Assembly (NCBI GenBank): GCA_003152225.1
Contig: PLZQ01000272.1
Coordinates: forward strand, 3,707-42,893
Reading direction: 5' to 3'
DNA: 39,187 bases
From: Limisphaerales bacterium
GTDB lineage: Bacteria; Verrucomicrobiota; Verrucomicrobiia; Limisphaerales; UBA8199
Part shown: piece after piece, positions 6,707-36,670 of the stretch
How positions within the stretch are numbered: position 1 is the stretch's first letter
Layout: each line of letters opens with the position of its first letter
Translations under genes and position numbers: made by a program
Notes under the pieces: model-generated
What the model saw: only the letters and a program-made list of their open reading frames with translations
What the model was told of the DNA's origin: nothing
Databases searched by the model: none

Positions 6707-6732
6707 CTCAAATCTTAATCAAAGGAGGGTGG

Positions 6733-6760
6733 AAAATAGCAAACGGAGCTACCAAGTCAA
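6733..6760 (-). promoter_or_regulatory. Candidate sigma70-type promoter for rplM-rpsI
   Basis: On the minus strand, TTGACT (6760-6755) and TATTTT (6738-6733) are separated by 16 nt, about 27 nt before the rplM start. Spacing and -35 fit well; the -10 matches four of six positions. By eye only. Confidence 0.45.
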
Positions 6761-6782
6761 CAGACATTTCAATTGTTTTGCA

Positions 6783-6811
6783 TTGTCTTCCGCAGGGCGC
6801 CCGATTATATC
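6783..6811 (+). promoter_or_regulatory. Candidate promoter for lspA-rluD
   Basis: TTGTCT (6783-6788), a 17-nt spacer and TATATC (6806-6811) lie just before the lspA ATG at 6828. It is back to back with the candidate rplM promoter. Moderate match only. Confidence 0.35.
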
Positions 6812-6827
6812 GAAACCGATCTCTGGC

Positions 6828-7358: not shown

Positions 7359-7392
7359 GGGGAACAGTGGGAATTGCGAGGCCCTGACAGCC

Positions 7393-11319: not shown

Positions 11320-12198
11320 ATGACTCAGGTCACACCAGGTGCCACATACCGGGGACGCCTCGCGCCCTCGCCCACGGGCTACCTGCATCTCGGCCACGCG
11401 CGCACCTTCTGGATTGCGCAGCAACGCGCCCAGGCCAACGGCGGCGTGCTCGTACTGCGAAATGAGGACCTGGATGCCACGCGCTTCAAGCTGGAGTTTG
11501 TCAGCGCCATGCTCGAAGACCTCGGGTGGTTTGGCTTTGCCTGGCAAGAAGGGCCGGATTGCGGCGGACCGTTTGGGCCCTACAACCAAAGCGAACGGCG
11601 CGAGTTCTATCTGGCTGCTATGCGAAAGCTGCTGGCCGGCGGGTTTATCTATCCGTGCACTTGCTCGCGGTCCGACGTGCGGCGGGCATTGGCGGCGCCG
11701 CACCAGGGCGAGGATGAGCCCGTGTATCCAGGCACTTGCCGCGCGAAGTACAAGGCGGGCGGCAAGGAGGGCTCATTCGATCCGGAATCGACGAGCGGCT
11801 CACCACACAAGAGGAATTGGCGCTTCCGTGTTCCAGACGGCGAGGTGATCGCGTTCGAGGATGGCGCGTGCGGGCCGCAGCAGTTCATCGCGGGCAAGGA
11901 CTTTGGCGATTTCGTGGTATGGCGGCATGATGGCGTTCCGGCTTACCAGCTTTCCGTCGTGGTGGACGACGCGGCGATGCAGATAACAGAAGTGGTGCGC
12001 GGCGCCGACTTGCTCCCATCAACCGCCCGGCAATTGCTGTTGTATCGCGCGCTTGGAGCGCCCGCTCCCCAATTCTACCACTGCCCGTTGATGACGGATG
12101 AGAAGGGAGTCCGCCTAGCCAAGCGCCACGATTCCTTGAGCCTGCGCCGCCTGCGCGCGGAAGGAAACTCCCCGGCGCAACTCCGCGCCCGGTGGTGA
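11320..12198 (+). CDS. gluQ: Glutamyl-Q tRNA(Asp) synthetase
   Basis: GluQ-RS attaches glutamate to queuosine at the wobble position of tRNA(Asp). It is a truncated paralog of glutamyl-tRNA synthetase without the anticodon-binding domain. Seen: YRGRLAPSPTGYLHLGHART (HIGH-type signature), LRNEDLDATR, a cysteine-rich zinc region (CTCSRSD and later GTCR), VVWRHDGVPAYQLSVVVDDA, VVRGADLL and the KMSKS-like LAKRHDS. At 293 residues it is too short for a full GltX. GTG at 11317 directly precedes the ATG I use, and either could start translation. A queuosine pathway elsewhere in the genome is implied. Confidence 0.92.
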   Translation: MTQVTPGATYRGRLAPSPTGYLHLGHARTFWIAQQRAQANGGVLVLRNEDLDATRFKLEFVSAMLEDLGWFGFAWQEGPDCGGPFGPYNQSERREFYLAAMRKLLAGGFIYPCTCSRSDVRRALAAPHQGEDEPVYPGTCRAKYKAGGKEGSFDPESTSGSPHKRNWRFRVPDGEVIAFEDGACGPQQFIAGKDFGDFVVWRHDGVPAYQLSVVVDDAAMQITEVVRGADLLPSTARQLLLYRALGAPAPQFYHCPLMTDEKGVRLAKRHDSLSLRRLRAEGNSPAQLRARW

Positions 12199-12232
12199 CG
12201 CCGGACGCACTGGGCTTAGCGGCATGCACCGA

Positions 12233-12832
12233 TCACGGCAACGGTTGACCGGCCGCCTGCCAGGCTTTGATCGCCTCGACCGGGTGCAGGAGCATGATGA
12301 TGTTCAGGGTCAGATTATCCCGTACCCACAGCGCACAGCCAATTTCCATGATGATAACGGCGGCCACACTGACCCACGGACGTACTCGGGATGCGAACAG
12401 AAAGCCGAGGGACATCATTGAGATGTCGCTCAGCGAATTCATCACACTATCGCCGACGTAGCCCAGCGCAATGGTCGCCTCGCGGTAGCGGTTGATGATC
12501 AACGGAGAGTTCTCAAGCAACTCCCAGCCCGCCTCGATCAGCACTGCGATCAGGAATCGGTGGCGGACCGGCATTTTGCGCGCTACCAGCCACAATAGCC
12601 CGAAGAACAATATGCCGTGCGCGAGGTGCGAAAATGAGTAAGGATCGGCCAATCGTTGGGAACATTCGCTGCTCCAAATATTCCCTTCCCACAGGCCAAA
12701 CCTGCCGTCCGGCCCGAGAAGGGACCGGCCCATCGAAAGCTCAATGCCACCCGTCAGCACCAGCACTGAAAGAAAAGCGACGATGCTCCAATGGTAGTCT
12801 CTAAGGAATGCAGGGATGGCCTCGGATGCCAT
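12233..12832 (-). CDS. DUF2585 (UPF0314) integral membrane protein
   Basis: The protein has five or six hydrophobic segments and the family signature WEGNIWSSECSQRLADPYSF, followed by SHLAHGILFF, EAGWELLENSPLIINRYREA, ALGYVGDSVMNSLSD and VRDNLTLNIIMLLHP. I recognise this as DUF2585, whose biochemical function is not known. I choose ATG 12832 because GAGGT lies seven bases upstream; a GTG at 12862 would add ten residues without family resemblance. It converges with gluQ, leaving only 34 nt between stops. A role in envelope biology is only a guess from its membrane location. Confidence 0.88.
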   Translation of the reverse strand: MASEAIPAFLRDYHWSIVAFLSVLVLTGGIELSMGRSLLGPDGRFGLWEGNIWSSECSQRLADPYSFSHLAHGILFFGLLWLVARKMPVRHRFLIAVLIEAGWELLENSPLIINRYREATIALGYVGDSVMNSLSDISMMSLGFLFASRVRPWVSVAAVIIMEIGCALWVRDNLTLNIIMLLHPVEAIKAWQAAGQPLP

Positions 12833-13424
12833 GCGGCAACCTCGCCGCAAAGCATCGAACACTGAGAATGATGCTTCTTCCCGGCTATTAATGCGGTTAG
12901 CGTGGCATGGCCACGGTAAGCCATCAAGCTCGAATGAGTGACCCGGCCCACAGCCTGGGAGGCATCAAGCTTGCGAGGACCGCTTGCATACGGCGGAGCG
13001 GTCATACCTCCGCCTTCCATCGAGTGCCAATCGCCGTTTACCTGCCTTCCAAAGCGGTCTGAATCCCGCTTCTCTGCTGCCCGCTTCCTGAATCCCATGA
13101 TTCCCTCTGGCCGGAACGGGCGGTTTCGCCTATTCAGTGAGGTCTCCAGCGGTGTATCTCAATATTGGACAGTTTCCCGTCTCGCAACCTGAAGAGCCAG
13201 CATTTATCCCAGTTCCTTCGTTGGCCGGGGTGGACTAACCGGGCGGAACTGCGTGCCAAGGAGACCACCCGCCCAGCCCCAACACGGACATTTCGGCGGA
13301 ACGCCCCTGTCGGCTTTGACTGAAGTCGGGAGGCTGAGGTGCCTGTCCATGGCTGCCGCCGTTTCCTGCTTTCCGAGGCGGCGGCTTTCGACTAAGCTGT
13401 TCCTGAGTAAATAAACAGGACGCT
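12833..13424. other. Gene-free intergenic stretch of about 590 bp
   Basis: No reading frame here has convincing protein character; the 114-residue minus frame at 12754-13098 overlaps DUF2585 and looks like a shadow. It contains the alternative hairpins at 12978-13014. It also has a 9-bp stem (GCTGCCGCC with GGCGGCGGC, one G-T pair) near 13345-13390, not followed by a T-run. I see no RNA gene. Confidence 0.5.
12978..13014. repeat. Overlapping alternative hairpins
   Basis: GACCGC (12978-12983) pairs with GCGGTC (12998-13003). GGCGGAG (12992-12998) pairs with CTCCGCC (13008-13014). The two stems share one base and have overlapping loops, so only one can form at a time. Function unknown. Confidence 0.5.
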
Positions 13425-13934
13425 ATGCCAATATACGAATATGCCTGCCCGAAGTGCCGGGTGATCTTCAACTTCCTGTCGAAGCGGATCAAGCCTGACC
13501 GCTTGCCGGTCTGCCCCAAGTGCGGAAACAAGAAGATGACCAAGCAGATGAGCCGGTTCGCCATGTCCCGCGGGCTGAAGGAGCCGGCGGCGAAGAGCGA
13601 GCCGGGAACGGGTGAACCGCCGATGCCCGATTTCGATGATCCGCGCATGGAGAAGGCCATGATGGAGATGGAGCGGGACATGGAGCACCTGGACGAGAAC
13701 AACCCCAAGCACATGGCCCACATGATGCGCAAGATGAAAGATCTCATGCCGCCGGGCACGGTGCCCAAGGAACTCGATGTCGCGATCAAACGCCTCGAAG
13801 CGGGCGAGGACCCGGAGAAGATTGAGGAGGATATGGGCGATGTCCTGGGCGATTTCATGGGCGGGCCGGACGAAGAGGGCGGGATGGGCGGCGGCGCTCC
13901 GTACTCGCACGATAGCGGGTTGTATGACTATTGA
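13425..13934 (+). CDS. FmdB-type zinc ribbon protein with acidic, Met-rich extension
   Basis: The first 40 residues match the FmdB zinc ribbon: MPIYEYACPKC, with Cys8 and Cys11, then a second pair, Cys30 and Cys33, in CPKCG. The family name derives from a putative regulator of formamidase genes, but its real role is uncertain. After the ribbon comes a long extension (about residues 50-169) rich in Met, Glu and Asp, predicted helical around EKAMMEMERDMEHLDE, ending in a Gly-rich, tyrosine-terminated tail. Plain FmdB proteins are often near 70-110 residues, so the extension is notable. AGGA lies four bases before the ATG. The Nudix gene follows after a 130-nt gap holding an inverted repeat. Confidence 0.82.
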   Translation: MPIYEYACPKCRVIFNFLSKRIKPDRLPVCPKCGNKKMTKQMSRFAMSRGLKEPAAKSEPGTGEPPMPDFDDPRMEKAMMEMERDMEHLDENNPKHMAHMMRKMKDLMPPGTVPKELDVAIKRLEAGEDPEKIEEDMGDVLGDFMGGPDEEGGMGGGAPYSHDSGLYDY

Positions 13935-13951
13935 TTGGTTACATGGTTGCA

Positions 13952-14048
13952 GGGTTACATCGTTACATGAGGAACGCCCGGGAAGATTAGCGTCGCAGTC
14001 GCCACCTTGCCGACCCTGTACCCATGTAACCATGTAACGATGTAACCC
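13952..14048. repeat. Inverted repeat of GTTACATG words
   Basis: An 18-nt arm at 13952-13969 (GGGTTACATCGTTACATG) is perfectly complementary to 14031-14048. Both arms are made of the word GTTACATG with neighbouring copies outside the perfect part. The 61-nt interior shows no gene. The pair fills the space between the FmdB and Nudix genes. Confidence 0.85.
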
Positions 14049-23614: not shown

Positions 23615-24577
23615 TCACCGAGCGGACTGGGGGCTCGGCGCCTCGAGAGCGTGCAACCAGGTATAGATGGTTTCATAAACGATCACGGTGGCCCAGGTGA
23701 CCCCAAGCCACAAAAGCGAGGCCTCCAACGGCAGACCGCAGAAACCGTTGACGAGCAATCCGATCATTTGCCGGGGCTGATACCCCCACCACTGATAGGG
23801 GACCGCGATGGCCGCTTCCCAGAAAAGGCTCACTAACAGAATAAACAGGAACGCCAGGCTGAAAGCGCGCCAGTTGATGTAAGGATTAGCCACCGGAAAG
23901 AAGATGGTGCTGGGTGTGATGGTCACCGCTGTCAGGAACAAAAAGTAGCTGGGAAATCCTTCGTGCCAAGGATGGGGCCCGAACTTCTTGTAGAGCAAAC
24001 CCAACCCGAACACCACCGCTCCGAATATGGCCGAATGCGGGTGGAAGCAGAACAGGTCGCGCAAGCGAGTGGTTCGGCGAGGACCATCATCGCGATTGTA
24101 GGCGCCAAACCAAATTTCGTCTCCCCAAACATAGGCCAGCAAAACTGCGACGATGCCAAAGGTGTAGAAGCCAATCTCCTCGATTGGTATCGTCTTTTGC
24201 CAGCCCTGCCCGAAGGAGTAGCCCCAGAAGGTTGCTCCCAACGTCGCCCCACGATTGGCGAAAGTGAAGAAGCTCAGGCCAAAGCACACGTCCAACAGAA
24301 TGCCAGCACCACTCAGCAGTCCGGCCGTAAGCCAGAAGGCGCGCTTTTGAATTGGGTTTTGCCGCCGGAGGGATACCCACAAGCCCAACACGACAACCGG
24401 CACGATGAAGAGGGAGAGGCTCCAGGTGTAACCGTGCGGTGTGGGGTTAGTGGTCAAATCGGTGACCAGCGGACGCGGCCCTTGGATGGTCATCAGCGTC
24501 AGGACGAAAGGAACCACCAGGACTGCTGCCATCCCGAGCAGCACCTTGGCATCCCTGTGCATAAGCCTTCGCGGCAT
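23615..24577 (-). CDS. Polytopic membrane protein with lycopene-cyclase-type motifs
   Basis: This 320-residue protein has about eight hydrophobic segments. Two regions carry the motif pattern of heterodimeric or fused lycopene cyclases (CrtYc/CrtYd type, P-x-E-E-x-x-F): TIPIEEIGFYTFG near residues 129-141 and GLPLEASLLWL near 281-291. The second is preceded by FWEAAIAVPYQWWGYQP, like the W-and-G block before the motif in those enzymes. The second motif has only one of the two Glu residues. The protein may therefore be a carotenoid or polyisoprenoid cyclase-like membrane enzyme, but this is inferred from motifs only. ATG 24562, preceded by AAGG, is an alternative start. It lies 70 nt after the hydrolase gene, in the cytochrome cluster. 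Confidence 0.6.
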   Translation of the reverse strand: MPRRLMHRDAKVLLGMAAVLVVPFVLTLMTIQGPRPLVTDLTTNPTPHGYTWSLSLFIVPVVVLGLWVSLRRQNPIQKRAFWLTAGLLSGAGILLDVCFGLSFFTFANRGATLGATFWGYSFGQGWQKTIPIEEIGFYTFGIVAVLLAYVWGDEIWFGAYNRDDGPRRTTRLRDLFCFHPHSAIFGAVVFGLGLLYKKFGPHPWHEGFPSYFLFLTAVTITPSTIFFPVANPYINWRAFSLAFLFILLVSLFWEAAIAVPYQWWGYQPRQMIGLLVNGFCGLPLEASLLWLGVTWATVIVYETIYTWLHALEAPSPQSAR

Positions 24578-24647: not shown

Positions 24648-25973
24648 TTAGTAAAGATTGAAAAGCTTGGCATCCTGGGTTCGTTCCACGGTGATGTCCA
24701 TCAGCAGGGTTTCGTTGGGGCGCCAGAACAAAGGATAACTGGCACTGTCCTTGTCCAATGGCAGCTCGCCCAAGCTATCGGTATTGCCGACCGAATAGCC
24801 GATCGTATGGCTTGGATTCGCCGCTGAGAGACTGAACACCAATTCCTCGCCCCCGCCGATGACGCCGTTCAGAGTTGTGAGATCGAAGATGAAAGAACGG
24901 TAGCTTTCATCGTTCTTGTAGTTGTGAACAGTTTGGAGCACATCCGTGTGGAGCTTGACCATCAAATCATCAATGGTCACCGCTTCTTCAGGCGTATGAG
25001 GGCGCTCATAGAATTCAAGGAAATAGTCTGGAATGGACATGCCGAGATCGTCGGTTACCCTTGAGACCAGGTTTTGGAATGTGTGGAGCGTGCTTCTGTC
25101 GGGGGACGCGGGTAGAGTCTGACGTGTGCGCGCGTCGCACGCGTCGGCGAACTCCTGGTAATTGGCGAGGTCGAGCCGCAGGAACTTCACGATGAAAGTG
25201 CCGAGCTCCGGGTCGAGCGTGTCGGGACGAATAATGGAGGCATGGTCCCGGTTGGGGAAGACGGCCATGGGAATCGGGCCGGCGGACTTCGGCCAGGTCC
25301 GGACGGTGGGGGCCTGGCTGTTGGCTGTGAAATTCAGCGAGAGCCCAGTCGCGTTGAGATTGGCCGTGCAAACATAGACGGTGCCATCGGTGCCGTCTTT
25401 ATCGATGAGTTGCCTCAGGGCGCCCTGGTAGGGCTGGCTGCCGACCAGGATGGCGCTCAGACAGGTTTCAGGCACGTAAAAGGAACGGGGGCCAAAAAGG
25501 TCGCGTTGGGCGAGTTTCCATGAGTAGGGCGAGCCCATCTCCAAGGCGTCGAGGATATGGGTCCCGGTCTCAAAGTTGGTCTGCCAGCCTTTGACGATCC
25601 TACCGAACATCGTCCGCCCCAGGGCTGCCAGCGGCGAGCCTAGATTGGCCGGCGCCAGCATCAGGAACCTGCGCACGGGACACTCTTTCCCAGTTTCCAG
25701 ATAGTAGCGGGTCATCCATTCCCGTGCCACGAGCGTGCCGGTGGAATGGACAATGAGATTGATACTCTTCGGGTCTGTGGGAATGCCTTTGTCGAGCAGG
25801 ATCTTCTGGAAGGACTTGGCCAGGTCTTCGATCGTGATGTGGTCTTCCAGCGAGACGTAATCTCCCAGCACGATGTCGGTCACCGTAAAGCCGTTGGCGC
25901 CGAGGAATTGTTGCAGGGGAACAAACGATTGTCGGGTGTCGCTATACCCGTGAAGGATGATTACGTTTGGCAT
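24648..25973 (-). CDS. Alpha/beta hydrolase (lipase/esterase-like) with extra C-terminal domain
   Basis: The protein begins NVIILHGYSDTRQSF, the first strand and oxyanion loop of an alpha/beta hydrolase. The nucleophile elbow is LIVHSTGTLV (Ser in H-S-x-G; the usual leading Gly is Val), followed by REWMTRYYLE and LMLAPANLGSPLA, as in lipase-like proteins. A candidate acid/His region is RDHASI. No signal peptide is visible. The C-terminal 150 residues (from about 280) have no obvious relative; they include FIFDLTTLNGVIGGGEELVF. The position between a di-heme cytochrome (15 nt upstream) and the lycopene-cyclase-like protein suggests hydrolysis of a lipid or ester substrate or product. GGAG lies nine bases before the ATG. 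Confidence 0.8.
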   Translation of the reverse strand: MPNVIILHGYSDTRQSFVPLQQFLGANGFTVTDIVLGDYVSLEDHITIEDLAKSFQKILLDKGIPTDPKSINLIVHSTGTLVAREWMTRYYLETGKECPVRRFLMLAPANLGSPLAALGRTMFGRIVKGWQTNFETGTHILDALEMGSPYSWKLAQRDLFGPRSFYVPETCLSAILVGSQPYQGALRQLIDKDGTDGTVYVCTANLNATGLSLNFTANSQAPTVRTWPKSAGPIPMAVFPNRDHASIIRPDTLDPELGTFIVKFLRLDLANYQEFADACDARTRQTLPASPDRSTLHTFQNLVSRVTDDLGMSIPDYFLEFYERPHTPEEAVTIDDLMVKLHTDVLQTVHNYKNDESYRSFIFDLTTLNGVIGGGEELVFSLSAANPSHTIGYSVGNTDSLGELPLDKDSASYPLFWRPNETLLMDITVERTQDAKLFNLY

Positions 25974-25988
25974 AAAACTATTCTCCGA

Positions 25989-27452
25989 TTACAGGGTTTT
26001 CAAGTATTCGAGCAGCGCTTCCTTTTCGCCGGCTGGGAGGGCTGTGCCGTAGGTGTGTCCCTGATTTCCATTGCCGCGCTGGCGTGTGTCCAGCAGGAAG
26101 CCGCCGCGCTCGGCCGCCGGTCCCGAGCTGACGAAGCCGACGTTGGCCGGATCGTAGAGGTCGCCGCCCCGATAAAAGGTCTGCGGGCGCTGTTCTGGTG
26201 GTTGGAGAAGAGCGCGGAGATTGGGAACGGAGCCGTTGTGTAGATAGGGAGCGCGGAGCCAGAGGCCATCGAGCGGCGAAGCCAGATAGCCTACGTTCTT
26301 GATGGTATCCGGCCGGTGGGCGCCCATCCCCTCATTGATGGCTCGGTTGGTCTTGCGGGACGCTTCCGGCGTCCAGGAATCAAACCGCTCGCGGTCAGTG
26401 CCAATCTCCTTGATAGGGACGGGGTGATTGCATTGCGGTTGGCCGGGCTCGTGGCAGGAGGCGCATTGCTGTTGGTAAAGGGCTTTGCCGGTGGCGGCCA
26501 AGTCGGCCTTGATAGCGTACGGACCATTGGGATAGGGCCAGTGCGGTGGTTGGAGCCGGCTGAGAAAACCGTCCAGGCGTTTCATATTCGGTTCGAAGTC
26601 CCGGGTCGGTCGCGCGCCGACTCCAACCGAGGAATCGACCAGCACTGTATAGACCGAGGGGCTTTCGCCGCCCCAGTTGAGGAACAGGTTGGTGCCCTTG
26701 CGAACCTGCAGGTTCCAGGCGGAAGCGAAGTCGCACTGGCCGACGGAGTGGTCCTCGGGCAGATGGGCCAGGAAGTATTTCGGAAGGTTAAAGGCGTCGT
26801 CGCGGCCCGGACCCCAGTCGGGCTTGCCAGGTCGGTCCATCCAGGCAAGCTGCTGGCCTTGCTGGATAAAGGCTCTACGGGTGAAGGGGATGATCGCGAA
26901 CCGATACAGCAACCGGTCGCACAAGCCGAGGTCGTAGTTTTGATTGATCTCGCTCAGCAGGGTATTGGCGTTAAATCGCGGGTCATTTGCGGCCTGCGAA
27001 AAGAAACGGAACATAGCCTGAACGTTGAAGCTGTGGGCTGGAGCACCTAGAACCACCACGGGATTCTCCTCTTCCTTGAGCCGGTAGGTCGTCACATGGC
27101 ACAGGGCACAGTTGTTGCCGACGCGCGGAAACCCAACGGTCTTTTTCGTGAACCCGACCGGCAGTTCGGAGCCTGGTTCCCAAACTACGCCGAACGACTT
27201 GTAGCCGCCGGTCCCTGGCATGAGGTCAGGGAAAATGCGCGGCAGGACCACCCAAATCCAATAAGGAATGCCAAACTGGCTCTCGCTGCCCAGCGAACCA
27301 TGCTTGAACCATTCCTCGTCGCTGGCGATGGGCGTGGGTTCGACCTGCCGGAAGAACTTATACCAGCCGAACCAGGCGGTCGCCCCGCCAGCGGCCAAGA
27401 CCAGCACGAAAATGAGGAAGCGTCTTTTTCGGGGGCGGGGGTTCGATTTCAT
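25989..27452 (-). CDS. Di-heme c-type cytochrome (CCP/RoxA-like), paralog 3
   Basis: An N-terminal basic stretch and hydrophobic segment (residues 11-30) anchor or export the protein. Two heme c motifs are present: CALCH (115-119) and CASCH (330-334), about 215 residues apart. Landmarks shared with the upstream paralog are GPGRDDAFNLPKYFL, GQCDFASAWN, APYLHNGSVPNLRALL and the C-terminal ALPAGEKEALLEYLKTL. These belong to the di-heme cytochrome c peroxidase-like superfamily; true peroxidase or oxygenase activity cannot be decided from the sequence. It starts 12 nt after the previous gene and is followed by the hydrolase after 15 nt. Its 487 residues differ from classical CcpA (about 320). Confidence 0.85.
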   Translation of the reverse strand: MKSNPRPRKRRFLIFVLVLAAGGATAWFGWYKFFRQVEPTPIASDEEWFKHGSLGSESQFGIPYWIWVVLPRIFPDLMPGTGGYKSFGVVWEPGSELPVGFTKKTVGFPRVGNNCALCHVTTYRLKEEENPVVVLGAPAHSFNVQAMFRFFSQAANDPRFNANTLLSEINQNYDLGLCDRLLYRFAIIPFTRRAFIQQGQQLAWMDRPGKPDWGPGRDDAFNLPKYFLAHLPEDHSVGQCDFASAWNLQVRKGTNLFLNWGGESPSVYTVLVDSSVGVGARPTRDFEPNMKRLDGFLSRLQPPHWPYPNGPYAIKADLAATGKALYQQQCASCHEPGQPQCNHPVPIKEIGTDRERFDSWTPEASRKTNRAINEGMGAHRPDTIKNVGYLASPLDGLWLRAPYLHNGSVPNLRALLQPPEQRPQTFYRGGDLYDPANVGFVSSGPAAERGGFLLDTRQRGNGNQGHTYGTALPAGEKEALLEYLKTL

Positions 27453-27464: not shown

Positions 27465-28967
27465 CTAGAAGGTTTTTAGGTATTCCACGACGGCGTCCTT
27501 CTCCCCCGCGGTAAGGTCGGTGCCGTATTCCCTGCCTTCATGGCCGTAGTTGCCGTTCCCCGGGAGGCGAGTGTCATAATGAAAGAACTTGCGCCCTTTC
27601 TCCTCGGCAATGTTCCAGACAAAGCCAACACGCTTGGGCTCATACACATCGTAGCCGCGGTAGAACTCCGGCGGACGGTTGGTGGAGTATTCCAGCAGAT
27701 CGCGCAGGGCTGGCACTGAACCGTTGTGCAGGTAAGGCGCGCGCAGCCAAAGGCCGTCCAAAGGCTGGTTCGCGTAACCCCAGGTCTTTCGGAAATGGGA
27801 GAAACGCTCATCGCCGTAGCCTGCATACAACAGGTTCTGGTTGGCGCATAGCTCCGGCGTATAAGAATCGAGCCTGTGCCGGTCGGTCTTGACCTTTTCA
27901 ATCGGGGTAACCTGGCCGACATATTCGCCGGTAAAGTCGGTGCCGTCTTTGCCGTGGCAACGGGAGCAGTATGCTTCGTAAATCGGCTTACCTTGATCGG
28001 CCATCCTCCTGTCGATAGGATAAGGGAAAGGGGGCGGCGTGGCGTCAAGCAACCAATCTTCCATTCGTTTCACTGACGCCCGATCGAGGGTGGGCGGGGT
28101 GGCGCCGGTGCCAAAAGCGGCGCTCCGGTTTCGCTCTTGAACAGAGTTATTATTGCCGTCCCAGTGAAGCCACAAGCCCTGGCGTTTGCGCTGGTTCCAG
28201 ATGGATGGAAAGTCGCACAAGCCGACCCACTCGTTGGTGCTGAGGAGGTCCATGCGGAAGTTCAGCAGCACTTTGGGCGGGTTGAAGGTGTCCACTCGTC
28301 CGGGACCGCAATCGGGTTCGCGTTCCATGAAACTGAAGCGCTGTCGCAGCAGCAGCAGTTTTTCACGAGCCAGGCTGATGCCCGCCAGGCGCAACAGCAA
28401 TCGATTGAACCAATCTTCGCCTCCGCGCCGCGCGATTTCGGGCACGAGGCGTCCGGCGGAGAACTTCTCATCCACGGCGCAGGCGAATAGAAATCGTTCG
28501 AAGGCCTGAAGATCGACGGTATTGGCGGGCATGCCGACGATAACGCGGGGCTTGCTTTCCGGCGTGTCGCGCACAGTGCCGGCGTGGCAAACCGCGCAGT
28601 TTAGGAAGACCCGGTCGATGCCCATCACATTCCGTCGAGAGGTGCCGACCGGCAGGTCTTTGCCTGGCTCATAAATGAAACCAATGGCGGGGAGACCATC
28701 GCCGGGCAAATACTCCCGGAAGAGCTCCGGCAGCGTCTTCCATAAAGAAACGGGGACGCCGGAGCCGCGTTCGCCCCCCGTGGAGCCGTACTTCATGTGC
28801 TCGACCGCGTCGGCGTAGGTCACCGGCACGTCGCGCGTGAATCGGAAGGCGAGGTAAACGAGCACCGCCAGGAACAGTAAGACCGTGAGCGCACGGAGCC
28901 TGCCGCAACGCCTGCAATTGCGTTGGGACGGCTCCGGGGAAGTGGGCTGGACAGGGTCAACGTTCAT
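27465..28967 (-). CDS. Di-heme c-type cytochrome (CCP/RoxA-like), paralog 2
   Basis: A 500-residue membrane-anchored or exported protein: one hydrophobic segment at about 24-42, then the catalytic body. Heme motifs CAVCH (124-128) and CSRCH (334-338) are 210 residues apart, as in the next gene. Shared blocks are CGPGRVDTFNPPKVLL, VGLCDFPSIWN, APYLHNGSVPALRDLLE, FYRGYDVYEPKRVGF and the tail GEKDAVVEYLKTF. The two mid-size cytochromes are clearly paralogs, with little difference in length. Neither CXXCH heme motif is degenerate. It begins 19 nt after the small unknown protein. Function could be electron transfer to, or maturation of, the large cytochrome; this is inferred from order only. Confidence 0.85.
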   Translation of the reverse strand: MNVDPVQPTSPEPSQRNCRRCGRLRALTVLLFLAVLVYLAFRFTRDVPVTYADAVEHMKYGSTGGERGSGVPVSLWKTLPELFREYLPGDGLPAIGFIYEPGKDLPVGTSRRNVMGIDRVFLNCAVCHAGTVRDTPESKPRVIVGMPANTVDLQAFERFLFACAVDEKFSAGRLVPEIARRGGEDWFNRLLLRLAGISLAREKLLLLRQRFSFMEREPDCGPGRVDTFNPPKVLLNFRMDLLSTNEWVGLCDFPSIWNQRKRQGLWLHWDGNNNSVQERNRSAAFGTGATPPTLDRASVKRMEDWLLDATPPPFPYPIDRRMADQGKPIYEAYCSRCHGKDGTDFTGEYVGQVTPIEKVKTDRHRLDSYTPELCANQNLLYAGYGDERFSHFRKTWGYANQPLDGLWLRAPYLHNGSVPALRDLLEYSTNRPPEFYRGYDVYEPKRVGFVWNIAEEKGRKFFHYDTRLPGNGNYGHEGREYGTDLTAGEKDAVVEYLKTF

Positions 28968-28986: not shown

Positions 28987-29424
28987 TCAACTCGCGAACC
29001 TCAGGGCGAAGTCGATCAGTTTCTTCTTGCCCCAAAAGACAATCCCCAGATAAACGCCCTCACCGACCTGGCGGATTTCGTCCCTAATCCAATGAGCCAG
29101 CAGGGAGGTTTGGGAATAATCGAGGACGATGCACTCCTTGCCATCGTACCAACTCGCATCCTTATAGACCTTGGCAATCACCGCCTTGACGCCAATGGGA
29201 AGCAGTTTGTTGCGCAGTTCGCCTTTGCTGGCGTCGAATACCTTCCCCTGCCAGGCGAACAGGTGGATGAACTTGGCCGCAGTCTCCTCCAGTTCGGTGC
29301 CAGGAGCAATAATGGCAGTGCCGGTGGCATCACCGTTGGGGATTTCGCCGGCCGGGCTGGCTTTGAATAAGCCGTCCAGCTCAGCCTGTGACATCTTCAT
29401 CAGTTGGGGTATGTCCACTGCCAT
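28987..29424 (-). CDS. Uncharacterised 145-residue protein in cytochrome cluster
   Basis: I do not recognise a named family. The protein has no signal peptide and no membrane segment; it is compact and mixed alpha/beta. Notable parts are LDGLFKASPAGEIPNGD near the start, KVYKDASWYDGKECIVLDYS in the middle, and LAHWIRDEIRQVGEGVYLGIVFWGKKKLIDFAL at the end. The latter could form a small ligand-binding or catalytic barrel. The start is well supported: AAGGA lies six to seven bases before the ATG. It sits between the large di-heme cytochrome (53 nt) and paralog 2 (19 nt), so it probably acts with them. Confidence 0.75.
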   Translation of the reverse strand: MAVDIPQLMKMSQAELDGLFKASPAGEIPNGDATGTAIIAPGTELEETAAKFIHLFAWQGKVFDASKGELRNKLLPIGVKAVIAKVYKDASWYDGKECIVLDYSQTSLLAHWIRDEIRQVGEGVYLGIVFWGKKKLIDFALRFAS

Positions 29425-29477: not shown

Positions 29478-31607
29478 TCAGAGAGTCTTGAGATACTCGA
29501 TGAGCGCCCGCTTGTCTTCGTCGGCTAACTCCGTGCCGAAATAATGGCCCTTGTCCTCGATGAGATCGGGGCATTTGCTGATTCGGAACAGGTCCGGTGC
29601 CAGCTCATCACGCATCAGGGCCTTGGAGGCCGCGGCGTCCAGATGCTTCAGCTTGATTTCGAGCAGCACCTTCTTGATCTTCAAGCAAAGCCCCAGCAGC
29701 TTTGCGGGGTCGGCTTCGGGATCGATGTTGGCGAGCAAGTTGATGGGCGTCCCTTCGGGGATTGGCCCAATGCGCAAATAGCCATCGGGGTCCATGTGCG
29801 GTTTCAGCAGCGTGCGCAGCGGCTCGGGGATGACTGAGGCCTGGAGTTGCAACTTGCACTCCTGGCTGGTCCGCCAAATGGAATTGGTGCCCAGCCGCTT
29901 TTCGGGCCATAACAGCTTTTCGATGGCGTCGTTGAACGCAGTCATCCTTCCCTTGACGGACGGGTCACCCGTGAATACGCCGAGTGTATTGTTGTGGAGC
30001 AGCGGGGCGGAGGACCAAACGCTGATCAGGGAGGCCGTACGGTAATATCCGTTGCCGCCGCCGGGCACAGTCCAGTTCTCCATCTTGTCGGTGTAAGGAT
30101 TCCAAACCTCAATATCCCCTGGTGACTCAAGCCCCTTGTAGGTCTCCGAGGAGAAGTTGGCCCAGATATGTCCCCGCTTGGCGTTGGTGCCGCAGGCGCG
30201 GGCGGAGTTGCTCTTAATCTTGGTGATGGGGTAGCGATGATCGTCCGAGAAGAAGTTCCCATCCTGGAAATCCGGCTTAAGGACTTCCTGGCGATACCAC
30301 TCGACGTCATCTGCTCCGACAGATGGCCGCTTGCTCGAGTGGCAGCGGGCACAGTTCTCGGCGAAAACCACCTTGCCGCGCGTCAACACTGCCTGGTCGG
30401 ATGTGAGGTATTCTTTTCCGTCGGGCGCGTCCTCCAGCCGGAACGCTTTGAGGCGGGTGAAGAACTTGCCGACATTGGTGAACTTCTGCTGCGTGGCCAG
30501 CCAATATACTGAGTTCTTCTGCGCCATGCTGATTTCGAACGGTTTCTGGCCGGTTAACCCGATCAATGCGTTGTGCTGCTGGAGGAAATGCTGCGAATAC
30601 ATGCCGATGTTGACATAGACGCGCAAGGTGGCGCCAACCACCCCGACTGAATCCGCACCATCTTTGAGGATATGAGGGACGTTCGCCGTGGGGGTGACGC
30701 CCGGCAGCAGCAGCGTCTCACCGGCCAGGACTTCCGGTTCGGCTACGGACAGGCGCGACCCGAGTTGGAAGATCGGGTTAATGGCATTGGGGTTGTTGAT
30801 ATTGTCCGTGGCGACGCGGGACGTGTCCGAGGTTCCGGGCGGCTGAGTCTTGAGCATTTCCCAGAAGAAGCCTCCTTCTTTTACCAGGTTGGCGAACACT
30901 TTGCCCTCGCGGATATATTGGTTGCCGATTGCCGAGGCCAGGTTGTCCCATTTCGGATTCGCCGGATCGGCGGGCGGCTTGCAGGGATTGAACGCGATGT
31001 GGCAAGCGCCGCAGGAGATGCCGACACGATAGGGGCGGACCAGGTCGCGGCGTATGGCGTAATCCGGGTCTGCGTAATAGCGGTTGCCATCCCATTTCTT
31101 GACCGCCTCACCCTTGAAATCCGGGTTCTCAAACAAACGGAACCCCATGATCCCCGTGGGGTGGCCATAGACTTTAGGATCGATGGCCGCCGGTTCGGGC
31201 TCGACCGCCTCATCGATCCAGAGGCCATACTGGTCGGCCTTGGAAGCCTGTTTGTAGCCGGGCTCGTTGATGAGCCCGAACTCCTTGAACCGCTCGCCGC
31301 GCTTGCGGGAGTCGATCGTCTTCAGCAAGTCAATCAGACCGAAGCTTTCCCGCGACATCCGTTCCCAGAACTGCTCATCGCCCCCGCACCAGAGATTCCA
31401 GGTATTGCGGCCCTTGATTTCCTCCGGGCTGAGCGTGAGCCCGCCATCCATCGGTTGGAAAACATCGGCCCCCAATTCGGGGAAATCCGCCGGCGTGCGG
31501 CCACCGCCGTTGTCGGCCAGCGGATTGGTGCTCCTGCAGCCGAAACCCGCGAATAGGCCCAGCACGCCCAGCGTAAATAACATCAGAATCAGTCTCGTCC
31601 TCATCAT
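29478..31607 (-). CDS. Large di-heme c-type cytochrome with RoxA-like architecture
   Basis: The protein is about 709 residues from the ATG at 31607, which has AAAGGG six bases upstream; an ATG at 31625 is possible. A hydrophobic segment ending at FAGFGC gives a weak lipobox, so it may be a lipoprotein. Two heme motifs, CGACH (about 199-203) and CARCH (about 419-423), are 220 residues apart in a protein of about 700 residues. That size and spacing match rubber oxygenase RoxA, and differ from the shorter cytochrome c peroxidases. The tail GTELADEDKRALIEYLKTL resembles its two paralogs downstream. RoxA-type proteins cleave polyisoprene, while related di-heme proteins make hydroxy fatty acids; the real substrate here is unknown. 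It is the first gene of the cluster and has the best promoter. Confidence 0.82.
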   Translation of the reverse strand: MMRTRLILMLFTLGVLGLFAGFGCRSTNPLADNGGGRTPADFPELGADVFQPMDGGLTLSPEEIKGRNTWNLWCGGDEQFWERMSRESFGLIDLLKTIDSRKRGERFKEFGLINEPGYKQASKADQYGLWIDEAVEPEPAAIDPKVYGHPTGIMGFRLFENPDFKGEAVKKWDGNRYYADPDYAIRRDLVRPYRVGISCGACHIAFNPCKPPADPANPKWDNLASAIGNQYIREGKVFANLVKEGGFFWEMLKTQPPGTSDTSRVATDNINNPNAINPIFQLGSRLSVAEPEVLAGETLLLPGVTPTANVPHILKDGADSVGVVGATLRVYVNIGMYSQHFLQQHNALIGLTGQKPFEISMAQKNSVYWLATQQKFTNVGKFFTRLKAFRLEDAPDGKEYLTSDQAVLTRGKVVFAENCARCHSSKRPSVGADDVEWYRQEVLKPDFQDGNFFSDDHRYPITKIKSNSARACGTNAKRGHIWANFSSETYKGLESPGDIEVWNPYTDKMENWTVPGGGNGYYRTASLISVWSSAPLLHNNTLGVFTGDPSVKGRMTAFNDAIEKLLWPEKRLGTNSIWRTSQECKLQLQASVIPEPLRTLLKPHMDPDGYLRIGPIPEGTPINLLANIDPEADPAKLLGLCLKIKKVLLEIKLKHLDAAASKALMRDELAPDLFRISKCPDLIEDKGHYFGTELADEDKRALIEYLKTL

Positions 31608-31673
31608 CGTTAACCCTTTCAGCATGGTGGTTGTACACTCTTTTTGCCTGCCTGGATTGGTATTACGGAATTT

Positions 31674-31702: not shown

Positions 31703-32300
31703 GAACCTTTTATGATGCTGATAACTTTTGAAGATTGTGAACAGCCGGTTGACAATCCGCGCGAGCCGCGTAACAGTGCCGCAGTTCCATAGACAGCACC
31801 TATACCCGCACTGGGGAATGTTCGGGCCTACCAGAAGGACGAAGGGAAAAGGGGTCGGGGCAGAGCCATTGCTGCGCCGGAATTGCGAAATACGTACAAC
31901 GGACACCCAAGGGATGTGTAAGGGAAGTACAAAGGAAGTACAAGGGACCAACCGGCTCACAACCGGCTCACAGCACGCTGGCCCATCCGTTGCTCCACGG
32001 TCACTCCATGGTACCCGCACCCTCCACCCACCGAGGTTGCTGGCGTGGTGATCCGAAGCTGCACCGTGAGACCCGCTTGCCGTGGCGCGGGGTTGCATAA
32101 CTGGGGAATGTTGATCGTCTCTATCCTGTCCTGCAGGTTGCGGAGCCTATGCCAAAGTTTCCTCTGTAACGTAAGGAGACGCGGTCGGGTGATCCCGGGG
32201 AGAGCGGTTGGCCCAGTATTTCTTCGTGGGGGAGGTGGAAACCCGTTACACGCAAGAAAGCAGTTGTCGGCATCGGGGAGCTGGCTCTAAGGTGTGGCCC
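31703..32300. other. Gene-free intergenic stretch of about 600 bp with word repeats
   Basis: No frame here looks coding; the two frames of about 110 and 160 residues lack family features. It contains a tandem GGAAGTACAA word (about 31920-31950), two adjacent ACCGGCTCACA words (about 31950-31975), and the stretch AAAAGGGGTCGGGG near 31847. A 13-bp direct repeat, ACTGGGGAATGTT, occurs at 31810-31822 and 32100-32112. The start of the NamZ fusion gene lies at its right end; I see no strong promoter for it. Confidence 0.5.
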
Positions 32301-34688
32301 ATGATGAAGTATTCGCGCCGGCTGGCGGCCTGTTCTTGCAGCCTCTCTCTCTTCCTCTTGGTGTGCTTGTGCGCTTGCAAGACCTCGCCCCCGGCGCGCC
32401 CCGCTGCGGCGCCGTTCTACGCGCCCAAACTGGCGGAGATGGACGCCGCCATCGACCAGGCCATCGCGGCCAGGAAGTGCCCCGGCGGCGTGCTGTGGGT
32501 GGAGCATCGCGGGGTGACGTATCATAAGGCCTATGGGCATCGCGCGCTGGTTCCCACCGAAGAGCCGATGACCGAGGACACCGTTTTCGACCTGGCGTCC
32601 CTGACGAAAGTGATCGCTTGCACCCCGGCGGTGATGCTGCTGATCGAGCGCGGGCAGGTGAAGCTGGATGAGCCGGTGAAGACTTACATCCCGGAATTCA
32701 AGGGCCAGGACAAGGATCCCATCACGGTGCGGCAACTGATGACGCACACTTCCGGGCTGCGCGGGGACATTGAGACAAAGACCGATTGGCACGGCCAGCC
32801 AGCGGCCATTGAAAAGGCGTGCGCGGAGAAGCTGCAGGGCGCGCCGGGCAGCGTGTTCCGATACAGCGACATCAATTTCTTCCTGCTGGGTGAGATTGTG
32901 CAGCGCGTCAGCCACACTCCGCTGGAAGAGTTTGTGGCGCGCGAAATCTATCGGCCACTGAACATGGCCGACACCGGTTACCTGCCGCCGAAAGAGAAGC
33001 TGGCGCGGATTGCGCCGACCGAAGTCTTGAACGGGGTTCCTTATCGCGGGGTGGTGCATGATCCGACGGCCCGGCACATGGGTGGAGTCGCGGGCCACGC
33101 GGGCCTGTTTTCGACGGCGGCTGACCTGGCGCGATATGCCCGGATGCTGCTGAACCACGGCTCGCTGGATGCCGTGCGCATCTTTAAGCCGGAAACGGTG
33201 GAGCTGATGACCAGCGTCCAGTCGCCGGAGTCGCTGCCCGTCCGGCGCGGGCTGGGGTGGGACATTGACTCCGGCTACAGTGGACCGCGCGGGAAGCTAT
33301 TCCCGGTTGGCTCCTATGGCCACACCGGTTGGACGGGCACGTCGATTTGGATCGACCCGTTCTCCCAGACGTTCGTGATCTTCCTGTCCAATCGCAACCA
33401 TCCTAATGAGAGCGGAAACGTGGGGGCGTTGCGCGCGAAGCTCGGGACGCTGACCGCGGAGGCGATCCAGGATTTCAATTTTGCGTCCGTGCCGGGAGCC
33501 CTCGCCTCCGCGCCAGAGCCGGAGAAGGGCGCCGTGGCCGGAAGGAGCGAGCCCAAAGTCGCCGAGCTGAGGAGCCTCAATGGCATTGACGTGCTCGTAC
33601 GGCAGAAGTTTGCCCCGCTCAAGGGACTGCGCCTCGGGCTGGTTACCAATCACACCGGGGAGGACCGCGGCCGCAACCCCACGATTGATCTGCTCAAGAA
33701 TGCGCCTGGGGTTGAACTGAAGGTGCTGTTCAGCCCGGAACACGGCATCCGGGGAGAGGTGGACGAGGGAGTGGGCGACACCGTGGATATGAAGACCGGT
33801 TTGCCTGTGTATAGCCTCTATGGCCAACGGTCGAAGCCAACGCCCGAACAGCTCAAGGACCTGGATGCGCTAGTGTTTGACATTCAGGACATCGGCTGCC
33901 GCTTCTATACCTACACCGCCACGATGGGGCTGACGCTGGAGGCGGCGGGCGAGAACGGGAAGAAGTATTTTGTGCTGGACCGGGTCAACCCGATTAACGC
34001 CGTGACGATCGACGGGCCGGTCCGGGTGGGCAAGGGGAGCTTCGTGGCGTATCACGAGGTGCCGCTGCGCTACGGGATGACGATTGGCGAGTTGGCGCGG
34101 ATGTGCAACGTCGAGCATAACTGCAAAGCCGACCTCACCGTGATCCAGGTCGAGAACTGGCGGCGCGATGCGTGGTTCGACCAAACGGGGCAGCCGTGGG
34201 TCAACCAGTCGCCCAATATGCGCAACCTGACCGAGGCCATCCTGTATCCCGGCATCGGTCTGCTGGAGAGCGTGATGTCGGTGGGACGGGGCACGGACAC
34301 GCCGTTCGAGGTGGTGGGCGCGCCGTACGCGGACGATGTGAAACTGGCGGAAGCGCTCAACGGAGCTGGCCTGCCCGGCGTAAGGTTCGTGCCCATCGAA
34401 TTCACGCCGACGTACAGCGTTCACAAAGGCAAGCTCTGCAAAGGGGTCTATATCATGCTTACGGACCGGGACCGGTGCAACGTCGTGGACGTGGGCTTGC
34501 TGATCGCGGAGACGATGTATCGCTTCTACCCGAAGGATTTCAACCCGGACAACATGCGCCATCTGCTGCTGCATCCTCCCACCTTCGAGGCCGTCAAAGC
34601 CGACAAGCCGCTCAGCGAAATCCACGCCTTGTGGCAGAAGGACCTGGACCAATTCATGGCGCGCCGGGCGAAGTATTTGATCTATTAA
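32301..34688 (+). CDS. Lipoprotein fusing serine beta-lactamase-like hydrolase with NamZ-type muramidase (DUF1343)
   Basis: Starts at ATG 32301: a lipoprotein signal peptide with lipobox LCAC (Cys26). Residues about 45-400 are a serine hydrolase of the class C beta-lactamase / penicillin-binding family: SLTK (Ser100, Lys103), Tyr188 in YSD and HTG (341-343). Residues about 425-795 form the DUF1343 domain of exo-beta-N-acetylmuramidase NamZ: GLVTNHTGEDRGRNPTIDLL, FSPEHGIRG, VFDIQDIGCRFYTYTATMG, YPGIGLLESVMSVGRGTD and LTDRDRC. The fusion would trim peptides or esters and MurNAc ends of peptidoglycan fragments in the envelope; this is inferred from the domains. The 795-residue length is full for both halves, with a short Ala/Pro/Glu linker between. 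Confidence 0.9.
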   Translation: MMKYSRRLAACSCSLSLFLLVCLCACKTSPPARPAAAPFYAPKLAEMDAAIDQAIAARKCPGGVLWVEHRGVTYHKAYGHRALVPTEEPMTEDTVFDLASLTKVIACTPAVMLLIERGQVKLDEPVKTYIPEFKGQDKDPITVRQLMTHTSGLRGDIETKTDWHGQPAAIEKACAEKLQGAPGSVFRYSDINFFLLGEIVQRVSHTPLEEFVAREIYRPLNMADTGYLPPKEKLARIAPTEVLNGVPYRGVVHDPTARHMGGVAGHAGLFSTAADLARYARMLLNHGSLDAVRIFKPETVELMTSVQSPESLPVRRGLGWDIDSGYSGPRGKLFPVGSYGHTGWTGTSIWIDPFSQTFVIFLSNRNHPNESGNVGALRAKLGTLTAEAIQDFNFASVPGALASAPEPEKGAVAGRSEPKVAELRSLNGIDVLVRQKFAPLKGLRLGLVTNHTGEDRGRNPTIDLLKNAPGVELKVLFSPEHGIRGEVDEGVGDTVDMKTGLPVYSLYGQRSKPTPEQLKDLDALVFDIQDIGCRFYTYTATMGLTLEAAGENGKKYFVLDRVNPINAVTIDGPVRVGKGSFVAYHEVPLRYGMTIGELARMCNVEHNCKADLTVIQVENWRRDAWFDQTGQPWVNQSPNMRNLTEAILYPGIGLLESVMSVGRGTDTPFEVVGAPYADDVKLAEALNGAGLPGVRFVPIEFTPTYSVHKGKLCKGVYIMLTDRDRCNVVDVGLLIAETMYRFYPKDFNPDNMRHLLLHPPTFEAVKADKPLSEIHALWQKDLDQFMARRAKYLIY

Positions 34689-34870: not shown

Positions 34871-35419
34871 TTACTTGCCCGCCAAACCTGCCTCAACGGC
34901 CTGAACCAATTCCGGCGAGTCCGGCTTCACCTTGGATTCGAACCGTTTCAATATCTTCCCATCGCGCCCAATGAGGAACTTGCTGAAGTTCCATTTGATG
35001 TCACCGGGAAAGGGAGAGCCCTCGCCGGCCAGCATCGTATAAAGTTGGTGCCGGTGGGGGCCATTGACCTCGATTTTGTCGAAGAGAGGGAAGGTTACCT
35101 GGTACTTCGACGAGCAGAACTGTTTGATCTCCTCATTGGTCCCGGGTTCCTGCCCCCCGAACTGGTTGCAGGGGAAGCCAAGCACGGACAGGCCCTTGTC
35201 CTTGTATTTTTCCTGGAGCGCCTCCAGGCCGGCGTATTGGGGGGTGTATCCGCATTTTGAAGCGACATTGACAATCAGCAGCACCTTCCCTTTATACGCC
35301 TTCAGAGAGGTTGGCTGGCCATCGATGTCTTTGAGCGGAATGTCGTAAAGGGTGTCAGCCGCTTGGGCTGCAACCACCTGCAAAAGCAACAATGCAAAAA
35401 GGAGCATGGATATCTTCAT
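34871..35419 (-). CDS. Periplasmic glutathione peroxidase-family protein (Cys type)
   Basis: A signal peptide (MKISMLLFALLLLQVVAAQA) precedes a full GPx domain. Peroxidatic Cys56 sits in NVASKCGYTPQ, followed by GFPCNQFGGQEPG (with the catalytic Gln86) and the late WNFSKFLI (Trp143, Asn144). The protein uses cysteine, not selenocysteine, like the thioredoxin-dependent bacterial enzymes. I start at ATG 35419 so that the signal peptide is intact; a longer frame adds 12 residues without merit. It follows the flavoprotein gene by 51 nt on the same strand, so they may be co-transcribed. Role: removal of peroxide in the periplasm. Confidence 0.92.
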   Translation of the reverse strand: MKISMLLFALLLLQVVAAQAADTLYDIPLKDIDGQPTSLKAYKGKVLLIVNVASKCGYTPQYAGLEALQEKYKDKGLSVLGFPCNQFGGQEPGTNEEIKQFCSSKYQVTFPLFDKIEVNGPHRHQLYTMLAGEGSPFPGDIKWNFSKFLIGRDGKILKRFESKVKPDSPELVQAVEAGLAGK

Positions 35420-35470
35420 GCCTGAAAACATGCATGGGGATGCCTCGCTCGTCAAATCGGGTGAGGGCTT

Positions 35471-36670
35471 TCACACCCCCAATCGACCGGAGACGAGGCG
35501 AATAAACGCGTCCTGCGGGTCAGCCGCGGACGGAAGCATCGAGTAGGCTTTCCAGAAGTAATTCTCCGGCGTGGCGTTCGTCTGGTAGAAGAAATAAATG
35601 AATTGCCGATAGCGCCCTACCAACTGCTGGACCGTGGTTTCGTAATCAGCCAACGCCTGGGGCGTTCCCGATTGGAATGACTCCTTGATCGCCCGGGCCG
35701 CCAGCCGAGCGCTCGTTGTCGCAAGCATGATCCCGGTGGACCAAATAGGGTCAATGAAGTTCCCAGCATCCCCGGCCAGCAGGAACCCGGGACCCGCCAA
35801 CCGGCTGGGCCGATACGAATAATCCGCTATAGACCGCAGCTCGGTGACCCGGGTCGCTCGGGCAAGCAGCTCCCGGGTGTAAACACTCTTCTGCAGGGCC
35901 GATTCGTAGAACGCGGTCCGGTCACCGGCCGCCGGGGACAACTCGGCTTTCGTGATCAACCCGACGCTGTTGGTGCCGTCATGGAGCGGGATATTCCAGA
36001 ACCAGCCAAGTTCCATCGCTTCGCAAAGGATCGAGTGAGCCTCTCGCCCTGGCAGCCGGGCCGCGTCGCGAAAGTAGGCGAAAACCGCTACATTCCTCAG
36101 GAAGGGGTCGTATTTGCGAAGTTTGAACTTAGAGGCCAGCCAGCCGGCCTGTCCCGAGCAATCGACCACCAGTCTCGCCTGCAACTCGAGTGGTTCTCCG
36201 TCAGCCAGCGTGGCGGTGAGCTTCGCGCCCGTCCAATTTGATCCCGCCACCGGTTGCTCCGCGAACTCGCGTGCCAGGACGCCATGCATGACTTCCGCGC
36301 CGCAAGTCTGGGCGTGCTCCAGCAGGATCTTGTCGAAGACCGAACGCACCACCTGGTAAGCATAGGTGAACCGATAGCGCTCCCTGGCTTCGTCGAAATG
36401 GAAGGTCCAGGGTTCGGGCTTGGTGCCCCAGCGAAACACCCCGCCTTCCTTGCGTAGAAAACCGGCGCTTTCGACCGCTGGGAGGGCACCGGACTCCTCC
36501 AGCACATCCAGGACTTCTGGCACCAACGACTCCCCAATGTGATACCGCGGGAATGTCTCCCGCTCCAGGACCGTGACATCCAGGCCGGATCGAGCCAGGA
36601 GTGCTGCCAAGGTTGACCCGGCCGGTCCGCCGCCAACGATAATCACATCACGTTGCCTCACGGGTGACAC
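35471..36670 (-). CDS. FADH2-dependent halogenase-like flavoprotein
   Basis: The N-terminus has the FAD-binding VIIVGGGPAGSTLAALLARSG, then FPRYHIGESLVPEVLD, typical of halogenases and geranylgeranyl-reductase-like enzymes. RKEGGVFRWG places Lys74 where PltA/CndH-type halogenases have their catalytic lysine. The halogenase fingerprint W-x-W-x-I-P is present (WFWNIP, 223-228), and GDAGNFIDPIWSTG closes the FAD site. The 399 residues are on the short side for phenolic or pyrrole halogenases. No carrier protein, NRPS/PKS gene or flavin reductase is nearby. The GTG at 36670 is used here; GTG at 36661, with GAGGTG six bases upstream, is a better initiation site. A hydroxylase or reductase role remains possible. 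Confidence 0.78.
   Translation of the reverse strand: MSPVRQRDVIIVGGGPAGSTLAALLARSGLDVTVLERETFPRYHIGESLVPEVLDVLEESGALPAVESAGFLRKEGGVFRWGTKPEPWTFHFDEARERYRFTYAYQVVRSVFDKILLEHAQTCGAEVMHGVLAREFAEQPVAGSNWTGAKLTATLADGEPLELQARLVVDCSGQAGWLASKFKLRKYDPFLRNVAVFAYFRDAARLPGREAHSILCEAMELGWFWNIPLHDGTNSVGLITKAELSPAAGDRTAFYESALQKSVYTRELLARATRVTELRSIADYSYRPSRLAGPGFLLAGDAGNFIDPIWSTGIMLATTSARLAARAIKESFQSGTPQALADYETTVQQLVGRYRQFIYFFYQTNATPENYFWKAYSMLPSAADPQDAFIRLVSGRLGV

Follow-up and report, generated by a model that had tools for sequence, protein, structure and literature searches.

The window analysed here, a 39,187-nucleotide stretch of a contig from a Limisphaerales bacterium (Verrucomicrobiota), carries an operon that encodes three di-heme c-type cytochromes. 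The largest of these (denoted as BIG) is placed by its sequence in a divergent subfamily, as yet without a name, of the RoxA/MauG/cytochrome c peroxidase superfamily, and the subfamily recurs across phyla with a conserved gene neighbourhood. Since BIG often lies beside lipid-cutting and flavin enzymes, its job is most likely the oxidation of lipids rather than of rubber. On the basis of gene context and family, we give about even chances to the reading that the locus encodes a membrane-anchored, periplasm-facing di-heme system for lipid oxidation.

BIG comprises 715 residues and is encoded on the minus strand at positions 29478–31625 (first ATG to stop). The upstream end at 31607 assigned in the preliminary description is the ATG of Met7, and the first ATG lies further out, at 31625. 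The exported protein with two CXXCH motifs about 220 residues apart that was described there is otherwise borne out. The heme 1 motif, CGACH (residues 205–209; 30999–31013, minus strand), and the heme 2 motif, CARCH (residues 425–429; 30339–30353, minus strand; PF00034, E 1.5e-5), are separated by exactly 220 residues. Both motifs, including the Cys/Cys/His positions, are invariant in the 31 to 33 relatives compared, which span several phyla, and are therefore not chance occurrences. The strict two-Cys/Cys-His DNA pattern occurs nine times in the window, versus 2.2 ± 1.5 times in shuffled sequences (none of 100 shuffles reached nine), and six of the nine copies are in frame, two apiece in BIG and in the smaller di-heme proteins CYT2 and CYT3 encoded downstream. 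The N-terminus of BIG is a hydrophobic export segment that ends in a cysteine (...FAGFGC); its lipobox, GFGC, is imperfect, and the relatives L007 and L009 carry LVSC and LAGC, respectively. BIG is thus predicted to be exported and membrane-anchored, probably as a lipoprotein. Plus-strand shadow ORFs (e.g. 30672–31556) were judged not to be genes.

The generic Cytochrom_C model (PF00034; 26.7 bits versus a cut-off of 21.3) was the sole family model that BIG passed. The RoxA-like cytochrome c model PF21419 gave 12.7 bits, under its gathering score of 26.7, and matched 13 of 31 BIG relatives at E ≤ 0.01. The NCBIfam model NF040606 gave 39.6 bits, under its cut-off of 150, yet matched all 31 family members at E ≤ 0.01; its name, di-heme cytochrome C peroxidase, establishes no function. 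The HMM comparison with RoxA and RoxB that had been proposed went against membership in these groups: the RoxA, RoxB and RoxC models gave 12.3, 14.4 and 17.7 bits (cut-offs 1000, 900 and 900) with matches confined to the last 25 residues of BIG, and the strongest match to these models among the 31 relatives had an E value of 2.8e-7. A classical CcpA/MauG (CCP_MauG-type) Pfam domain was absent from BIG and, at E ≤ 0.01, from its 31 relatives, and the Pfam scan of the same proteins gave no match to PSD domains, so that neither of the two assignments named earlier as competitors arose. A PDB sequence search with BIG alone gave no significant match, while profiles of the BIG family recovered only the RoxA tail and c-type heme segments, those of cbb3 among them. 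BIG is accordingly best regarded, at the sequence level, as a remote relative of RoxA and as a member of none of the RoxA, RoxB and RoxC groups.

The RoxA-like architecture proposed for BIG stands with respect to motif order, spacing and the C-terminal Gly-His; it fails with respect to the RoxA/B/C and PF21419 cut-offs, none of which is reached, and to the MauG-type motif, which is degenerate. RoxA (Steroidobacter cummioxidans 35Y, PDB 4b2n) likewise has about 700 residues and binds its two c-type hemes at sites about 200 residues apart. With RoxA positions taken from PMC6311187, the heme 1 His is residue 209 in BIG and 195 in RoxA, the heme 2 His 429 and 394, the MauG-motif position 544 and 517, and the C-terminal Gly-His 694 and 641; the order of the four elements is identical and their spacings are close. 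In RoxA, Phe317 lies over heme 1, Trp302 lies between the hemes, His394 and His641 are on heme 2, and the MauG motif reads PYFHNGSVP (PMC6311187, PMC10837239). The corresponding stretch in the alignment of BIG is APLLHNNT (residues 541–548, with His544; 29982–30005, minus strand), in full APLLHNNTLG, and in about 13 of the 33 relatives Gln, Leu or Asn takes the place of its histidine. His694 (29544–29546, minus strand) lies in the C-terminal segment (K/R)GHYFGT...ALIEYLKT, a region whose final 25 residues can be aligned with the C-terminus of RoxA. It is invariant in the relatives' alignment and is a candidate for the role of second axial ligand to heme 2, the putative counterpart of RoxA His641. 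Between the hemes, the alignment of relatives reveals a highly conserved family-signature motif, LKDGADSVGVxxAxxRVYVNIG (residues 320–341; 30603–30668, minus strand), which, placed by eye, may be the counterpart of the RoxA WDG...F segment. Under this placement Lys321 would occupy the position of Trp302; hhalign covers the segment without confidence, and no confident counterpart of F317 or W302 emerged in BIG. BIG further differs from RoxA in being membrane-anchored and in occurring in other phyla and in another gene context. RoxA itself has a stable Fe(II)-O2 species at heme 1, and its production required the native host, since E. coli did not yield it. An AlphaFold2 model of BIG built from a 14-sequence alignment (pLDDT 59.5, pTM 0.49) was set aside as evidence on the fold or active site. 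Its best structural matches were weak ones to MauG (Foldseek E 0.86; Z 4.9), and the absence of RoxA 4b2n from the matches of so poor a model is uninformative either way.

The RoxA-type signature is better preserved in the two smaller proteins, CYT2 (500 residues; 27465–28967, minus strand) and CYT3 (487 residues; 25989–27452, minus strand), which are di-heme members of the RoxA-like family with N-terminal transmembrane anchors. Both pass PF21419 (50.5 and 60.2 bits; cut-off 26.7) and NF040606 (164.9 and 194.3 bits; cut-off 150), under which BIG falls far short, a search with their profile recovers RoxA 4b2n at E 1.2e-23, and the MauG motif PYLHNGSVP is present in both. The earlier view of two small paralogs beside BIG holds as to their presence and homology, but CYT2 and CYT3 are closer to RoxA than BIG is. 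Comparison by hhalign shows BIG and the CYT profiles to be homologous, with a probability of 98 and E values of 8e-14 to 1e-14 across the heme 2 segment, and some alignments extend to the MauG-type motif; a full-length alignment of low confidence brings heme 1, heme 2, the MauG-type motif and the C-terminal His into register. In CYT2, Trp269 within HWDG corresponds to the inter-heme Trp of RoxA, and Phe285 (in SAAFGTG) is the probable counterpart of F317, with a two-residue offset between the HMMER and MAFFT alignments. The CYT2 of the window and those most closely related to it have Phe at this position (Tyr in one); cyanobacterial, rhizobial and some acidobacterial CYT2 proteins have Leu or Ile. 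CYT3 retains the Trp and has Val, Leu or Ile, among others, in place of Phe at the F317 position.

The operon comprises five genes on the same strand, in the order BIG, SMALL, CYT2, CYT3 and an alpha/beta hydrolase, with intergenic gaps of 53, 19, 12 and 15 bp, and the order BIG–SMALL–CYT2–CYT3 is identical in Verrucomicrobia and Blastocatellia. SMALL (145 residues; 28987–29424, minus strand) has no signal peptide and is predicted to form a lipocalin-like barrel: its model (pLDDT 80) matches 4mve at Z 12.4 and lipocalin-type barrels at lower values (Z about 5–6.5). Since SMALL is fused N-terminally to CYT2, ahead of its transmembrane helix, in L003 and L005, it is probably cytosolic. In the window's clade, SMALL and BIG are encoded within about 3 kb of each other. 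All six genomes with a strong SMALL profile match in the phylum of L002 also carry BIG, as do all five in a further profile search, and within the window's own phylum a profile search found SMALL in the window's genome only. The hydrolase (24648–25973, minus strand), which begins 15 bp after CYT3, is lipase/thioesterase-like (DUF7379, 2e-5; Palm_thioest and LCAT, weak) and is weakly similar (E 2e-5) to the hydrolase beside the cyanobacterial relative L076. A 320-residue membrane protein with a weak lycopene-cyclase-domain match (23615–24577, minus strand; TIGR03462, E 0.014) is possibly the last gene of the operon. A few kilobases upstream of the cassette lies a glutathione-peroxidase family gene with a signal-like N-terminus (34871–35455, minus strand; PF00255, E 4e-46), whose product could reduce lipid hydroperoxides. 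The gene at 35471–36670 (minus strand) encodes an FAD-dependent halogenase/monooxygenase-like protein whose similarities to CmlS, QhpG and geranylgeranyl reductases all stay under the NCBIfam cut-offs, and that at 32208–34688 (plus strand) an 826-residue protein in which, judged by eye, a second domain is joined to a beta-lactamase-like serine hydrolase.

BIG had been called an orphan; its family proved to be conserved in several phyla, in a gene neighbourhood that recurs. A degenerate-pattern scan of genome contigs located 17 loci, in Verrucomicrobia, Blastocatellia, another Acidobacteriota, Rokubacteria, Gemmatimonas and Oscillatoria. BIG was found in 2 of the 289 genomes searched from the window's own phylum and in 3 of 292 from the phylum of Oscillatoria, while the phylum of L002 gave strong matches in about 15 of 297 genomes. 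It is also present on 21 plasmids, every one from Rhizobium, Sinorhizobium or Mesorhizobium, and the viral contigs searched contained no relative. The family thus ranges over Verrucomicrobia, Acidobacteriota, Gemmatimonadota, Rokubacteria, cyanobacteria and rhizobial plasmids. In the tree, the BIG protein of the window is placed among intermixed Blastocatellia and Verrucomicrobia copies that share 70–72% identity across phyla, an intermixing that suggests horizontal transfer or mis-binning of metagenome-assembled genomes.

Across 40 loci, the partners beside BIG are GMC oxidoreductases (18), CYT2/CYT3-like proteins (16), patatin-type phospholipases (8), Old-Yellow-type flavin reductases (7) and DyP-like proteins (6); these counts rest on similarity to representatives, on which Pfam was run, and include loci that end at contig edges and rhizobial loci that are mutually related. 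A GMC oxidoreductase lies near BIG in 12 of 21 genomes, where about 0.25 genomes would be expected by chance within 10 kb, a figure obtained by simple arithmetic from the only 0–12 GMC genes in each of the 21 BIG-bearing genomes. Lipid-cleaving enzymes near BIG include Lipase_3 (L002 and L003), patatin (L018, L075 and L079), a Tle1-like phospholipase (L071) and a PGAP1/lipase-like hydrolase (L076). The GMC and lipase partners are not universal, since GMC genes are absent from the genome of the window and none of the probed partners was found at L073, L074 and L077, whose flanks are complete. A compact seven-gene version occurs on plasmid pRL11 of Rhizobium johnstonii (RL_RS32270 to RL_RS32240), with near-touching genes in the order OYE, CYT2, a small membrane protein, CYT3, BIG, GMC and patatin, and most of this run is also present in S. 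fredii and Sinorhizobium sp. B11.

The BIG family is nameless, its members are annotated as 'hypothetical protein' or 'cytochrome c', and it occurs in a cassette conserved in soil bacteria, cyanobacteria and rhizobia; the pRL11 copy in R. johnstonii 3841 makes its function directly testable by genetics. To our knowledge, a substrate has been established for very few RoxA-type di-heme oxygenases, and the small number of bacterial di-heme oxygenases that act on lipids come from Pseudomonas. The superfamily is already known. Neither the large BIG subfamily nor the gene cassette appeared in the open-access literature searched; searches on the combination of cassette genes, on 4mve and on rhizobial locus tags (with guessed tag numbers) returned nothing relevant.

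The lipases, patatins, Tle1-like phospholipase and lipocalin-like protein encoded nearby point to a lipid substrate. As far as we know, the characterised large monomeric enzymes of the superfamily act on polyisoprene or unsaturated fatty acids (PMC4496055, PMC6311187), and these substrates, together with the lipid-enzyme neighbours, favour lipid oxidation in the periplasm. The placement in the superfamily, the conservation of the heme motifs, the operon layout and the recurrent neighbours are direct observations. In the scheme that we infer for the substrate, the chemistry, the division of labour and the location of SMALL, the neighbouring lipase or phospholipase would free or expose an unsaturated acyl chain or another lipid, and one di-heme protein would insert O2 at its N-terminal heme. 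CYT2 is the likeliest candidate for this oxygenase because it keeps the RoxA-type active-site signature. The remaining di-heme proteins might act on the product as oxygenase or peroxidase or relay electrons, with BIG as a second oxidase or relay, and SMALL might serve as a cytosolic lipid-binding barrel. In many relatives, the GMC and Old-Yellow-type flavoenzymes would process alcohol or enone products; such enzymes suit alcohol-to-ketone and enone reduction steps. It is possible, though on balance doubtful, that the cassette constitutes a previously undescribed, oxylipin-type lipid-oxidation pathway, shared across phyla and carried also by rhizobial plasmids, in which a phospholipase or lipase, two RoxA-like di-heme oxygenases, the BIG subfamily, a GMC alcohol oxidase and an Old-Yellow-type enone reductase would cooperate. 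The chemical parallel to jasmonate formation in plants, which likewise combines a lipase, a dioxygenase and an enone reductase, is only an analogy.

Characterised systems offer partial counterparts. PA2077 of Pseudomonas aeruginosa is a RoxA-like di-heme fatty-acid 10S-dioxygenase that acts on oleate and needs both hemes (PMC4496055). The FadCcp proteins PA2077 and PA2078 resemble the present system as tandem RoxA-like di-heme periplasmic proteins with a heme spacing of 235–245 and a lipid substrate, and the Trp of PA2077 is kept in CYT2 and its Phe probably too; they form a pair, however, whereas BIG loci combine three such proteins with lipases and flavoenzymes. The RoxC lipoproteins resemble BIG in being exported, 700–800 residues long and di-heme, and have no shown rubber activity; they are proposed to oxidise unsaturated fatty acids (PMC10837239). 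In contrast to BIG, they retain PYxHNGSVP and are recognized by their own model, with its cut-off of 900 bits. MauG and the classical bacterial cytochrome c peroxidases share the di-heme superfamily with BIG but are about half its size.

Several considerations count against the lipid reading: the GMC and lipase partners are not universal, lipase genes are common, BIG has no confident counterpart of F317 or W302, and the di-heme fold also serves peroxide reduction and protein modification. Together, electron transfer and peroxide removal claim a substantial probability, short of even. BIG and its partners might take electrons from a flavin dehydrogenase to the respiratory chain without activating O2, as cytochrome acceptors do in membrane-bound gluconate or alcohol dehydrogenases. 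The GMC oxidoreductase is indeed the commonest neighbour of BIG, often encoded by the next gene, and the candidate bis-His coordination of heme 2 is typical of electron transfer. We nevertheless regard this explanation as unlikely: the cytochromes are exported while the GMC protein has no apparent export signal (Rj_GMC begins MSDGPTHDYIVIGSGAGG), no gluconate-dehydrogenase small subunit was seen, and the window's genome contains no GMC gene at all. Ranking below it in likelihood is a role of the di-heme proteins as periplasmic peroxidases that clear H2O2 or lipid hydroperoxides from nearby flavin oxidases. This would suit a superfamily that includes the bacterial cytochrome c peroxidases, the name of NF040606, the glutathione-peroxidase gene upstream and the DyP-like genes near relatives. 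CcpA-type peroxidases, however, have Met as the C-terminal ligand, where BIG has a RoxA-type Gly-His; neither BIG nor its 31 relatives match the classical CcpA/MauG Pfam family, and three different di-heme enzymes would be unusual for one detoxification.

A MauG-like role, in which one di-heme protein would modify a partner protein during cofactor maturation, is very improbable. The weak similarity of the BIG model to MauG would fit it, as would the QhpG/LodB-like flavoenzyme at 35471–36670 and a LodA-type oxidase near a Mesorhizobium relative, but the low quality of the model deprives this similarity of weight, the flavoenzyme gene lies outside the cassette, and the conserved neighbours include no common partner protein. 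Least probable of all is that BIG is a genuine oxygenase of rubber (polyisoprene) or another terpenoid. Its size and heme spacing are RoxA-like, and the weak lycopene-cyclase-domain membrane protein and the geranylgeranyl-reductase-like flavoenzyme lie nearby; the RoxA and RoxB cut-offs, however, exceed the bit scores of BIG more than 50-fold, its MauG motif is degenerate, and the contexts are those of lipases and patatins, not of rubber catabolism. Even RoxC, which is nearer to RoxA than BIG is, has no rubber activity (PMC10837239).

Several loci show further arrangements around BIG. The GMC oxidoreductase of L078 (10425–15566) and L081 (10825–15513) lies within very long ORFs of 1714 and 1562 residues, respectively. 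The second part of the long Mesorhizobium ORF resembles the patatin-type protein of L018, and oxidoreductase and phospholipase appear to be fused there. A conserved protein pair, represented by L002 (11714–13003 and 13020–14522), is found near BIG in several loci; one member is weakly DyP-peroxidase-like and the other, of 430 residues, has no Pfam match. DUF4331 proteins adjoin the BIG–GMC pair in L072 (12447–14294) and L075 (11480–13045), and L063 carries two divergent BIG copies (5428–7914 and 11476–14007) on either side of one GMC oxidoreductase.
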